Positions 3,745 to 33,457 of a stretch of 33,457 nucleotides of DNA are shown here, one piece after another (within the stretch, counting starts at the first letter, position 1; each line of letters starts with the position of its first letter). Source of the stretch: Dysgonamonadaceae bacterium (GTDB lineage: Bacteria; Bacteroidota; Bacteroidia; Bacteroidales; Dysgonomonadaceae); assembly GCA_028708095.1 (NCBI GenBank), contig JAQVZQ010000005.1, forward strand, positions 1 through 33,457, given 5' to 3'. Below the pieces are notes generated by a model. That model saw nothing but the letters and a program-made list of their open reading frames with translations, did not search any database and had not been told where the DNA came from. The position numbers and the translations under genes are program-made.

Positions 3745-4923
3745 ATGTATCTATTCAATCCCGATAACGACTTGGCACTTGCCAATTTCAATCCTAATTT
3801 CACAGCACCCGCATCGGCGCGCAAATTAAGGAGTGATTTATCGCTGCTCCCAATATGGTATGCTTCAGATGAAGCTTTTGTTATTGCCGAAGGCGGTTTA
3901 AATCTCAAACATCTCCAGTTTTTAAAAGAGAAATTGCCTTTCAATAACACCCTCATCTCTTTTGCCGAATTGACCAAATATACTGGTCGGATAATAAAGC
4001 CTTGGGGGTGGAGCCCCTCTGTAAGAAAACAATTTATTGAAAAGGGTGTGGAAGAACAATTACTGCCATCTATTGGTGATATACAACTTATACGCAATTA
4101 TTCAAGCAGACAAAATGCTGTTAGTTTATTGGCAGAACTTAAGAAATTGAATGCATTTTTCTGTGGTGAATCATACTTTTATTCTGATATTAACACGCTG
4201 CTTGACTATGTCTACTCAACTAAAGTAGATCAAGTGCTAAAGATGCCATACTCGGGTAGTGGTAAAGGAATTGTTTGGATTAAAGGAGCTATCACTGATA
4301 AGCAAATTGATTGGTGCAAGCGGGTAATAAATACCCAGGGTGGGGTAGTGATAGAACCAGTGCTTAATAAAGTGCAAGATTTTGCAATGGAATTTGAAGT
4401 AACAGATAATGGTATTCAATTTGTAGGTTATTCATTGTTTCAAGCAGCTGCATCGGGGGCATATATTGGCAATATACTATTACCCGATTCTGAAATTGAA
4501 AATGTGTTGTCAAAGTATGTTTCTTTCGATGTTTTAAATCAATTGAGAACAGCACTTGAAAAGAAACTGTCCACTTATTTTCCACTCTATCGTGGCTTCT
4601 TGGGCGTGGACATGATGATTTGCAAAACAAATGATTCTACCTATCAATTACAACCTTGTGTTGAGGTAAATGTGCGCATGAATATGGGGATTGTTGCCCA
4701 CCGTGTACATCAAAGATTTGTTCACAAGGGCTCTACTGGTGTGTTCTCTATAAATTATTTCAAGCATGAAACTGAAGCGCAGCAATTTGTACGTACAATG
4801 CAATCTAAGTATCCATTGGCAATAGAGAACGGTAAAATTAAAAACGGTTACTTATCTCTGACTCCTGTTGACAAAGATACCCGTTATATTGCTTGCGTAT
4901 CTATAGCACAGAATCAAAAATAA
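3745..4923 (+). CDS. ATP-grasp-like protein of unknown function
   Basis: This cytoplasmic protein has 392 residues if it begins at the ATG at 3745. The frame is open from 3664, but that would run through the buk terminator, and conserved-looking sequence starts at MYLFNPDNDLALAN. KMPYSGSGKGIVWIKG around 165-180 resembles an ATP-grasp nucleotide-binding loop, and CVEVNVRMNMG around 305-315 resembles the metal-binding E-x-N end of the fold. I recognise it as a widespread uncharacterised Bacteroidota protein but know no substrate. The family suggests ATP-driven ligation of a carboxylate to an amine or thiol. It follows buk but is cut off from it by the terminator, so it is probably transcribed separately. 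Confidence 0.65.
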   Translation: MYLFNPDNDLALANFNPNFTAPASARKLRSDLSLLPIWYASDEAFVIAEGGLNLKHLQFLKEKLPFNNTLISFAELTKYTGRIIKPWGWSPSVRKQFIEKGVEEQLLPSIGDIQLIRNYSSRQNAVSLLAELKKLNAFFCGESYFYSDINTLLDYVYSTKVDQVLKMPYSGSGKGIVWIKGAITDKQIDWCKRVINTQGGVVIEPVLNKVQDFAMEFEVTDNGIQFVGYSLFQAAASGAYIGNILLPDSEIENVLSKYVSFDVLNQLRTALEKKLSTYFPLYRGFLGVDMMICKTNDSTYQLQPCVEVNVRMNMGIVAHRVHQRFVHKGSTGVFSINYFKHETEAQQFVRTMQSKYPLAIENGKIKNGYLSLTPVDKDTRYIACVSIAQNQK

Positions 4924-4966
4924 TTAAGTCTTCGCTCCTGTTTTAATGTTCAGTGTGAATGTTTTA

Positions 4967-5003
4967 TCATTCATTACGTAAGATTATAGTATGTAATGAA
5001 TGA
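4967..5003. promoter_or_regulatory. Palindromic operator candidate for hipBA
   Basis: Two perfect 11-bp arms, tcattcattac (4967-4977) and gtaatgaatga (4993-5003), are separated by 15 bp. The symmetry extends inward by three more positions, one of them a G-T mismatch. It ends 28 bp upstream of the -7 candidate and lacks a T-run, so an operator is more likely than a terminator. HipB family repressors bind such palindromes upstream of their own operon. Confidence 0.6.
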
Positions 5004-15437: not shown

Positions 15438-15579
15438 GGCTCATGACGTTATCTTTGCGTTGTACGCAAATAGCTATAAAACTCATCTATACTTATAAAC
15501 CGCATTCAATTGATTGCGGTTTTATCATTGTAAATGAATGTATTGCATTACATTTCAAAGAGGATGGAAGGATGGGTGG
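15438..15579. other. Start of the 1.57-kb gene-free stretch after sucD
   Basis: Positions 15438-17005 contain no convincing gene. In order they hold the sucD terminator, an inverted hairpin-repeat module (15580-15908), a 41-bp tandem array (16037-16386) and a long AT-rich leader for the next operon. The 64-codon frame starting at 15538 lies across the repeat module and is not credible. Confidence 0.6.
15497..15525 (+). terminator. Terminator of sucCD
   Basis: aaaccgca (15497-15504) pairs with tgcggttt (15515-15522) around a loop that is itself a small palindrome, followed by a T-rich tail. Confidence 0.75.
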
Positions 15580-15908
15580 ATAATGTCACTCCTTACGGAG
15601 TTTTGGTGTAGTTCTACACTATTTGCTATAATAATTTCAGCCCTTGTGGGCTTTAATGCTGAGCTAAATGAACTCTCGCTATCGTCTCTTAATTATTTAA
15701 CAAGTCACAGGTCAGAGACTTGCGCCAGCTAAAGTTTTCCATTGCATTGACCTGTTGAATTTTACAAGCAATACTATAATCAAAATAAGGTTGTTGTTAT
15801 TGTAAGCAAGAACAACAAATAAATCCAGAAACTCCGCAAGGTGTGATATTATTGTAGTAAAGAACATTTAATAGAAACGGAAACACCGCATAGAGGTGAC
15901 ATTGTTTT
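15580..15908. repeat. Hairpin-repeat module A (two minus units, two to three plus units)
   Basis: Minus-oriented units lie at 15580-15601 and 15626-15652 (stems actcc/ggagt and agccc/gggct). Plus-oriented units lie at 15830-15857 and 15882-15908, with a more degenerate one at about 15778-15806. Hairpin starts are 51-52 bp apart within each orientation. Each unit is a 5-bp stem with a 3-4-nt loop followed by TGnnATTATTATAG-like sequence. The same units surround the transposase gene at 32.4 kb, but none is present here. Confidence 0.8.
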
Positions 15909-16036
15909 GATAATTAGTCTCCACTCCTGCCATTGTCTGCCAAAAATCCTCTTTATTTGAGTATTACAAAGACTAAAACACCATAACGAAACAGAAATCA
16001 GAGTTGATAAAGTGGGAAAGTATGGGTGTTAAAAAG

Positions 16037-16386
16037 TCAAAACATGTTAGGAGAAATGCTTTCTCCTCAGTGAAAAACCAGAACTTGTTATGGGAAATGC
16101 TTTCTACCCAGTAGAAAGTTAGAACTTGTTAAGGGAAATACTTTCTACTCAGCATAAAGCCAGAACTTGTTAAGGGAAGGACTTTCTACTCAGTGGAAAG
16201 CCAAAAATTGTTAGAGGAGATGCTTTATACTCAGTAGAAAGCTTGAAATTGTTTGGAAAGGTACTTTCTACTCAGTAGAAAGCAGGAAATTGTTTGGGGG
16301 GGTACTTTTTCAACATGAGAAAGTGTGAACTTTCTAAGTGAAACACTATTTCAGCTTAATATCAGTACGAACTTGTGCAATTTATC
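16037..16386. repeat. Tandem hairpin repeats, exact 41-bp period, about eight copies
   Basis: Units begin at 16059, 16100, 16141, 16182, 16223, 16264 and 16305, each exactly 41 bp after the last. A half unit precedes them and a decayed unit begins at 16346. Each has a 19-bp inverted repeat (best form ctttctactcagtagaaag) and a 22-bp linker resembling ccagaacttgttaagggaaatg. The leading half unit has aaaaagtcaa, as in the array at 12920, linking the two arrays into one family. Confidence 0.92.
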
Positions 16387-31963: not shown

Positions 31964-32011
31964 GTAGTGAGTGGTAGGAGATTATTTTGAAATTAAAGTG
32001 TAGATAGAGAG

Positions 32012-32371
32012 ATAATGCCACCCCTTTCGGGGTTTTAGGTGCTTTCTAATGTCATTAACTATAATAATTTCAGCCCTCCGGGCTTTAATAAATGCTATTT
32101 ATACTATTGAGGAAAGTTATATTGATTACTGATAAAAATAAAATTGTAACCTATTAAAGTTGAATAGACATTTTATTAATTGCTTAACTTCGCAAGAGAT
32201 GTTTTTTATTAATGAAATGATTTTATATAACGAATGCAATCACGCCGTGAATGGTTTTTAATAATTGCAATGATTTTGTATACAACAAACCCAACTCCGT
32301 AAGGAGTGCAATTATTATAGCACGAAATAATATAGTAACAACAGAACCCCATATGGGGTGGCATTATTTTA
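32012..32371. repeat. Hairpin-repeat module B, upstream of the transposase gene
   Basis: Two minus-oriented units (32012-32033, stem acccc/ggggt; 32059-32084, stem agccc/gggct) face plus-oriented units at 32293-32320 (actcc-gtaa-ggagt) and 32345-32371 (acccc-atat-ggggt). Two decayed plus units begin near 32186 and 32238. Starts step by 52-55 bp. The tails of the last two plus units point toward the transposase start at 32416. Confidence 0.85.
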
Positions 32372-32415
32372 AACAGATAATTATCTATAACTGATATCAA
32401 AAAAACAACCAAAAT

Positions 32416-32877
32416 ATGTCCAGAACATTCTCTCAAATTTATATACAAATCGTTTTTGCTGTTAAAGGACGTCAAAACCTAATTAGTGAAAGCTGGAAAT
32501 ATGATGTAAATAAATATATATCTGGTATTATTACCAATAAGGGACAGAAATCAATAATCGTGAACGGAATGCCAGATCATATTCATGCTTTTATCGGACT
32601 GAAGCCCTCTATGGCTATTTCAGATTTGGTTAGGGATATAAAAAACAATTCATCTAATTTCATTAACAAAAATAGGTTCGTAAAAGGTAAGTTTTCATGG
32701 CAAGAAGGTTATGGGTCATTTTCATATTCCCAATCTCATATTGAACAGGTTTACAATTACATATTAAATCAAGAGCAACATCATCACAAAAAGACATTTA
32801 AAGAAGAATACATCGAAATCCTTCAAAAGTTTCAAGTTGATTTTGATGAAAAATATTTATTTGAATGGATAGAATAA
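32416..32877 (+). CDS. HUH-type transposase (Y1_Tnp; IS200/IS605 or RAYT-like)
   Basis: This 153-residue protein has the single-tyrosine HUH nuclease fold (PF01797). The metal-binding HUH motif is PDHIHAFIGL with H55 and H57. The catalytic tyrosine is in VYNYILNQEQHH, most likely Y115 (YIxNQ). The sequence FSWQEGYGSFSYSQS is the usual intervening block. Such enzymes cut single-stranded DNA next to short hairpins. The gene has no TnpB partner. It sits between hairpin units whose tails point inward from both sides, and the first downstream unit overlaps its stop codon (32874). This layout fits a RAYT-type domesticated transposase with its repeats; a plain IS200-like element is the alternative. 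All key residues are present. Confidence 0.88.
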   Translation: MSRTFSQIYIQIVFAVKGRQNLISESWKYDVNKYISGIITNKGQKSIIVNGMPDHIHAFIGLKPSMAISDLVRDIKNNSSNFINKNRFVKGKFSWQEGYGSFSYSQSHIEQVYNYILNQEQHHHKKTFKEEYIEILQKFQVDFDEKYLFEWIE

Positions 32878-33138
32878 TGTCACCTCTCCGAGGTTCATGA
32901 AGCCTTTCATTATCCCGCATCTATAATAATTTCAGCCCTCCGGGCTTTAATAAAACAAGAGTAATCCCGAAGATGACATATTTGCAGAATATCAAAATAA
33001 TAGTATCACTAACCCCGCAAGGGGTGCTATTATTATAGTATATTGCAATCAAGTGTACACTAAACCCCGCAAGGGGTGACATTATTATTGCATATTCTTT
33101 TATTACTAAAAAAACCCATAAAGGTGATATAAATCAAC
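32874..33138. repeat. Hairpin-repeat module C, between transposase and deleted copy
   Basis: Minus units are at 32874-32894 (acctc/gaggt) and 32921-32946 (agccc/gggct). Plus units are at 33011-33038 and 33063-33090 (both acccc-gcaa-ggggt), with a decayed plus unit near 33113. Hairpin starts are 52 bp apart in both orientations. Positions 32868-33022 recur at 33178-33332 with seven mismatches. Confidence 0.9.
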
Positions 33139-33144
33139 TAAAAC

Positions 33145-33187
33145 ATGCCAAGAACATTTTCACAAATTTATATACAAGATAGAATAA
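33145..33187 (+). pseudogene. Internally deleted copy of the HUH transposase gene
   Basis: The first 11 codons (MPRTFSQIYIQ against MSRTFSQIYIQ) are joined directly to the last bases of the gene (gatagaataa at 33178). About 420 bp of coding sequence, including the HUH motif and catalytic tyrosine, are missing. In the new frame the gene's own stop is bypassed and reading continues into repeat sequence, so no function is expected. It keeps the flanking repeat units, as a non-autonomous derivative would. Confidence 0.85.
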
Positions 33188-33332
33188 TATCACCTCTCCG
33201 AGGTTCAGGAAGCCTTTTATTATCCAACAACTATAATAATTTCAGCCCTCCGGGCTTTTATAAAACAAGAGTAATCCCGAAGATGACATATTTGCAGAAT
33301 ATCAAAATAATAGTATCACTAACCCCGCAAGG
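33184..33332. repeat. Hairpin-repeat module D, truncated
   Basis: Minus units are at 33184-33204 and 33231-33256; a plus unit starts at 33321 and stops after aaccccgcaagg, inside its own hairpin. Together with the bases before it, this segment is a near copy of 32868-33022. Confidence 0.88.
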
Positions 33333-33457
33333 TAGGGTGTCCAATATAGTGTTCCTAAATTGAGGCTTTTTCCTGTGTTCTTTTCTTTGTTTTTCAACAA
33401 CTAATTTATTAATATAAACTTGTGTTTTATATGTAAAATAACTTGTGTATATTGCTG
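33333..33457. other. Unrelated sequence beyond a sharp repeat break
   Basis: From tagggtgtccaatatagtg onward the sequence no longer follows the repeat module. It contains no coding frame I trust. It could be the end of an insertion sequence whose body lies outside the window, or simply the native flank at a deletion joint. Confidence 0.35.

Follow-up and report, generated by a model that had tools for sequence, protein, structure and literature searches.

The locus described here is probably a REPtron-like system with an IS200-like HUH transposase of class 1 (TnpA_Y1 subclass 1.2). Its repeated unit is a pair of hairpins spaced by about 50 nt in the same orientation, a polar direct doublet, which the enzyme is predicted to bind and cleave. 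Sequence analysis supports the anatomy of the unit, the conservation of its stems and tail, its fixed spacing, its dispersal, its sharp ends, the existence of empty sites and the occurrence of lineage-specific hairpin types. The doublet is a likely substrate for a group of enzymes reported without a hairpin partner; no DNA partner was previously known for subclass 1.2, and a lineage-specific doublet makes the activity of these enzymes directly testable. This reading would place a class 1 enzyme in a REP-like lifestyle, with a bearing on the origin of REPs from insertion sequences, and the doublets would explain a dispersed, phased class of repeats in Bacteroidota and Ignavibacteriota genomes of which no description was found in the open literature.

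The window, that is, the whole stretch of DNA analyzed, is the entire contig C224 (33,457 nt) of a 454-contig genome that is 92% complete. Its units follow the formula A-[A NNN C]-loop of 3-4-[G NNN T]-GNNATTATTATAG, a 5-bp-stem hairpin with a conserved tail, and lie 51-52 bp apart within one orientation, with plus units starting at 32293/32345 and 33011/33063 (each pair 52 bp apart) and minus units located at 32034/32084, 32894/32946 and 33204/33256. Compensatory changes are seen in three of the five stem pairs of the window units, and covariation reaches 0.394, against 0.163 in shuffles. The units surround both an intact HUH transposase gene and a second copy with an internal deletion (Table 1), and the anatomy, coordinates and 52-bp spacing of tailed hairpins proposed in the initial annotation were all borne out. 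The deleted transposase that it placed between modules C and D is likewise real: positions 33131-33177 are identical to the start of the gene at 40 of 47 sites, and this part directly abuts the gene end and module (149/160 identical). The proposed succession of module B, transposase, module C, deleted transposase and module D also holds, with the qualification that the plus units at 32186, 32238, 32962 and 33272 are decayed.

Table 1. Hairpin modules and transposase sequences identified in the window.
Feature	Position	Strand	Evidence
Module A (without transposase), whole	15573-15912		
Module A, minus doublet	15573..15654	-	Covariance model and doublet model
Module A, plus doublet, second unit decayed	15829..15912	+	Covariance and doublet models, inspection
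Module B, minus doublet (U1 32057-32086, U2 32005-32035); top doublet-model score of the genome (65.8 bits)	32005..32086	-	Covariance matches
Module B, two decayed plus units, 52 bp apart	32186..32275	+	By eye, repeat family D7
Module B, plus doublet directed towards gene	32292..32374	+	Covariance and doublet models
HUH (Y1) transposase gene, 153 aa, TnpA_Y1 subclass 1.2 by motifs	32416..32877	+	Pfam Y1_Tnp 90 bits; DHIH/WQ/YILNQEQHH
Module C, minus doublet directed towards gene; U2 tail overlaps transposase stop codon region	32867..32948	-	Covariance and doublet models
Module C, decayed plus unit	32962..33007	+	Weak doublet-model match at 32962-33034
Module C, plus doublet, hairpins 52 bp apart	33010..33092	+	Covariance and doublet models
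Internally deleted transposase, first codons fused to last codons	33131..33189	+	Alignment to intact gene
Module D, minus doublet, 95% copy of module C	33177..33258	-	Covariance and doublet models
Module D, plus units; last hairpin interrupted by IS at 33333	33272..33332	+	

The genome search with a covariance model of the unit that had been proposed in the initial annotation identified 68 units, and a focused search 73, at about 33 sites in the window's genome, nearly all of them as direct pairs. Further modules, the absence of which would have spoken against that annotation, are therefore present, and 31 of 33 neighboring same-strand units are 51-52 bp apart. Paralogues of the transposase on contigs C285, C250 and C427 are each accompanied by their own hairpin type, and transposase copies within this genome are 35-61% identical, except for a tandem array of identical copies on C250. 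This head-to-tail array (L177) comprises at least three copies of a paralogue of 35% identity together with its own hairpins; the genes lie at C250:27863, 28736 and 29570, with periods of 873 and 834 bp, and the array runs off the contig end. A second dispersed hairpin family (GCTGGTGCRGAT..ATCTG and GACTTGCGCCAGC), located at L149, L156, L159, L163 and positions 15700-15730 of the window, shows nesting with the doublets in the window's genome. Element ends could not be established from that genome, in which repeat families are nested.

The transposase presents a DHIH motif followed by WQ and by YILNQEQHH, which conforms to Y---Q--HH. Among 68 aligned homologues, the second H of the HUH motif, the W and the Q are invariant, as are the Y and HH of the Y motif, the Q of which is conserved in over 90%, and a C-terminal stretch (FKEEY...KYLFEW) is also conserved. 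In the survey by Quentin et al. 2018 (PMC6006769), TnpA_Y1 subclass 1.2 is characterized by DH[IV]H, WQ and Y---Q--HH motifs, a length of about 148 aa and a conserved C-terminal stretch, and is scored as 'no' in the REP column and as generally devoid of terminal IS200 structures. Motifs and length assign the protein to class 1, TnpA_Y1 subclass 1.2. The protein scores 68.7 bits against the NCBIfam IS200 model NF033573 (cut-off 55) and 28.6 bits against the RAYT/REP-associated model NF047646, far under its cut-off of 80, and its predicted structure (pLDDT 94) matches the hairpin-DNA complexes of ISDra2 and IS608 TnpA and shows a weaker match to E. coli TnpA_REP. A RAYT identity is ruled out by the Y---Q--HH motif, which is not Y---NP, by the NF047646 score, by the lack of a 5' GT[AG]G in the repeats and by their arrangement in direct, not inverted, pairs.

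Hairpins were sought, without using the tail, beside 80 homologues at 68-79% identity from the Bacteroidota, Ignavibacteriota, Chlorobiota, Chloroflexota and Planctomycetota, 78 of which were testable. Up to 300 bp from the gene, hairpin density in this set was 8.84/kb; it fell to 1.06/kb at distances of 1.5-4.5 kb, and shuffled sequence gave 0.58/kb. Hairpins were present on at least one side in 78/78 testable loci and on both sides in 60, with a spacing peak at 47-53 nt. The usual order is convergent (U1>U2>-tnp-<U2<U1), with the outer unit U1 carrying the full tail and the inner unit U2 only GAYAT; the 3' tail of U1 ends in TRTAG about 13 nt from the hairpin foot, and U2 ends about 6 nt past its foot. 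Compensatory changes affect 8 of 10 pairs in 51 aligned doublets, a set selected for hairpins and hence biased, and an unbiased search that used only the tail as anchor found perfect 5-bp stems for 191 of 286 sites with the fixed offset and for 1 of 286 once the offset was shifted. The TRTAG offset is fixed at 8 nt in close homologues and ranges over 5-9 nt at 45-65% identity, where the 50-nt phase persists and hairpin and tail sequences differ (GCTCC stems with a TGTTTGTAG tail, for example); homologues at 33-44% identity still have hairpins but no longer show the 50-nt phase. Control genes of subclass 1.1, from related genomes of the same order, show a single hairpin on each side, a density of 3.5/kb and no 50-nt phase. 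In the protein tree, phyla are mixed within the window's clade, which suggests that gene and hairpin type have been transferred horizontally together, and a simple tail label is clustered on this tree, but not as one clade per label. Density, architecture, lineage-specific types and the subclass 1.1 control thus lend strong comparative support to the link between HUH protein and hairpins drawn in the initial annotation, with the exception of the RAYT-type identity. In Pseudochryseolinea flava (L143), the transposase lies beside an array (4057-4983) in which about 19 hairpin units follow one another head to tail every 47-48 bp.

Twelve further genomes contain 4-40 doublets and 1-10 genes each. 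In an alignment of 25 solo copies from four genomes, the conserved segment begins 1 nt ahead of the U1 hairpin and ends some 6 nt beyond the U2 hairpin; the spacer of 22 nt and the flanks on either side are at background level, the sole conserved 5' position being an A at -1. No target-site duplication of the doublets was seen (mean shared flank word of 4.29, against 3.96 in shuffles), and a TRTAG target was looked for on their left flank and not found. One 145-bp insertion in Flavobacterium soli, made up of two doublets tail to tail, lies between two genes, and about 145-220 bp are missing between the same genes in 19 of 23 other species, as resolved to the intergenic region and not to the base. 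The empty-site comparison suggested in the initial annotation, run across species, hence revealed empty orthologous sites for one Flavobacterium insertion. Higher-order layouts vary, with << >> in the window's genome, >> << in G128 and head-to-tail arrays in Pseudochryseolinea, and the dispersal units differ among genomes, as solo doublets, divergent << >> arrangements or >> << inside longer repeats. Some genomes also contain pairs of paralogous gene-bearing units, the homology of which stops close to U1; the pairs tested span 75-87% identity, including Ancylomarina L070/L071 (87% over about 990 bp) and L090/L095 (80%). Doublet-model matches in G046 were considered as a recent burst and rejected, their alignment being that of a TIR MITE; this 205-bp terminal-inverted-repeat element (TTGGACTTTGGACAAA ... 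TTTGTCCAAAGTCTAA) is present there in six near-identical copies with internal hairpins (L188-L193).

Doublets and genes tend to occur together. Among 61 relatives, a subclass 1.2 gene was found in 14 of the 15 doublet-bearing genomes, against 30/61 overall (p = 7e-5), and among 61 Flavobacterium genomes 21 carry doublets, 20 a close gene and 15 both (p = 6e-6); with gene-flanking doublets and the MITE artefact excluded, the association yields p = 0.003 in the relatives and p = 0.005 in Flavobacterium. The initial annotation had regarded modules in genomes devoid of any such transposase as evidence against its proposal, and this objection applies in part: orphan doublets with no close gene detected do occur in G002 and in six Flavobacterium genomes (G076, with 8 doublets, G084, G089, G104, G121 and G126). 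Orphan repeats following gene loss are also known for REPs.

The most serious alternative is an ordinary IS200/IS605 insertion sequence, with the hairpins as its left and right ends and the solo doublets as short, PATE-like non-autonomous derivatives. The score above the IS200 cut-off and the predicted IS200 fold would fit this interpretation, as would the paralogous gene-bearing pairs with homology that stops close to U1 and, at 24 of 63 loci, the position of the stop codon 8-11 nt away from the following hairpin. Nonetheless, it appears improbable, since class 1.1 elements of the same order have one hairpin per end, in contrast to the two direct hairpins per end and inverted ends observed here, the copies are far from near-identical (35-61% in the window's genome, 75-87% in the tested pairs), and the conserved tail is internal to the doublet.

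Two further explanations detach the hairpins from the transposase. Were they RNA-level elements, such as terminators or mRNA 3' stabilizers found near any gene, their association with the transposase would be passive; their intergenic location, including one studied site between convergent genes, is compatible with such a role, but their density drops eightfold away from the gene, hairpin and tail types vary with transposase lineage, phase (50 nt) and polarity are fixed, and no Rfam family was found in the window, all of which make this reading very unlikely. Scarcely any weight can be given to the doublets being MITEs of an unrelated DDE transposase that lie near the gene by chance: the TIR family caught by the doublet model in G046 does represent such an element, but it scores only about 36 bits and has no tail, and true doublets have neither terminal inverted repeats nor target duplication.

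As in the REPtrons, REPs and REPINs of class 2 TnpA_REP/RAYT proteins (PMC8266576, PMC3116915), an HUH-Y1 gene stands between hairpin repeats that are also scattered over intergenic positions, hairpin types are specific to gene lineages, and tandem clusters occur; unlike them, the repeats described here lack a 5' GT[AG]G and the protein bears the class 1 motif Y---Q--HH, not Y---NP. Whereas the REPIN is an inverted pair that replicates as a unit, the solo units reported here are direct doublets, and inverted doublet pairs appear only as a higher order. With IS200/IS605 elements of subclass 1.1 (IS608, ISDra2) the system shares the catalytic core, the fold, direct hairpins on one strand and a conserved 3' tail after one hairpin, but it differs in having two phased hairpins per side in an inverted layout, instead of one per end, and diverged copies in low number, instead of multiple near-identical ones. 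Relative to the TnpA_Y1 survey (PMC6006769), the protein resembles subclass 1.2 in motifs, length, host phyla and low copy number, but hairpins accompany every close homologue tested here, in contrast to subclass 1.2 as surveyed. The same survey describes REP-type structures in the Bacteroidota for subclasses 2.4 and 2.6, not 1.2 (PMC6006769); subclass 2.6 has atypical non-GTAG hairpins copied elsewhere in the genome, but its protein carries Y---NP and no phased direct doublet is reported for it in the available text. Both tandem REPs and REPs of Bacteroidota had been described before; for a REP-like partner of subclass 1.2, and for the direct phased doublet as a unit, no earlier description was found in the open literature.

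IS200 enzymes are described in that survey as dimers acting on two hairpins of one strand (PMC6006769). In the REPtron-like system proposed here, the doublets framing the gene convergently, and those dispersed singly through intergenic DNA, would be bound by the protein as hairpins in single-stranded DNA at the replication fork, probably by a dimer with one hairpin per subunit. A cut near TRTAG, between the two hairpins, would then copy or move doublets and, occasionally, the whole gene-bearing unit, and repeated joining at the same site would also explain tandem arrays. In IS608, cleavage takes place about 10 nt past the hairpin of the right end and about 19 nt ahead of the left-end hairpin. 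The doublet, in which the tail runs about 13 nt to the TRTAG end and a further 24 nt or so lead to the next hairpin, resembles by these distances a right-end/left-end joint. By analogy, we tentatively consider it possible, though not the likelier case, that the doublet is laid out as an IS200 right-end/left-end joint, and that one dimer could accommodate a single doublet and carry out strand exchange at its central TRTAG; a cut inside the doublet would account for the conservation of the tail there and not outside. If true, the joint-like doublet would add a third type of arrangement to IS200 ends and REPINs, and would be a generator of self-extending arrays that explains the 50-nt tandem phase.

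Other repeats were also observed in the window. A separate CTTTCTACTCAGTAGAAAG hairpin array with conserved spacers spans positions 16020-16360, and is found as well at L172, L173 and L176. At 33333-33457, the contig ends within the end of an unrelated IS (GGGTGTCCAATATAGTGTTCC). Of its four genomic copies, each located at a contig end, three (in the window, C333 and C249) are inserted into a REP-like hairpin, in its 3' arm at ..GG|TA, and the IS hence seems to target such hairpins.
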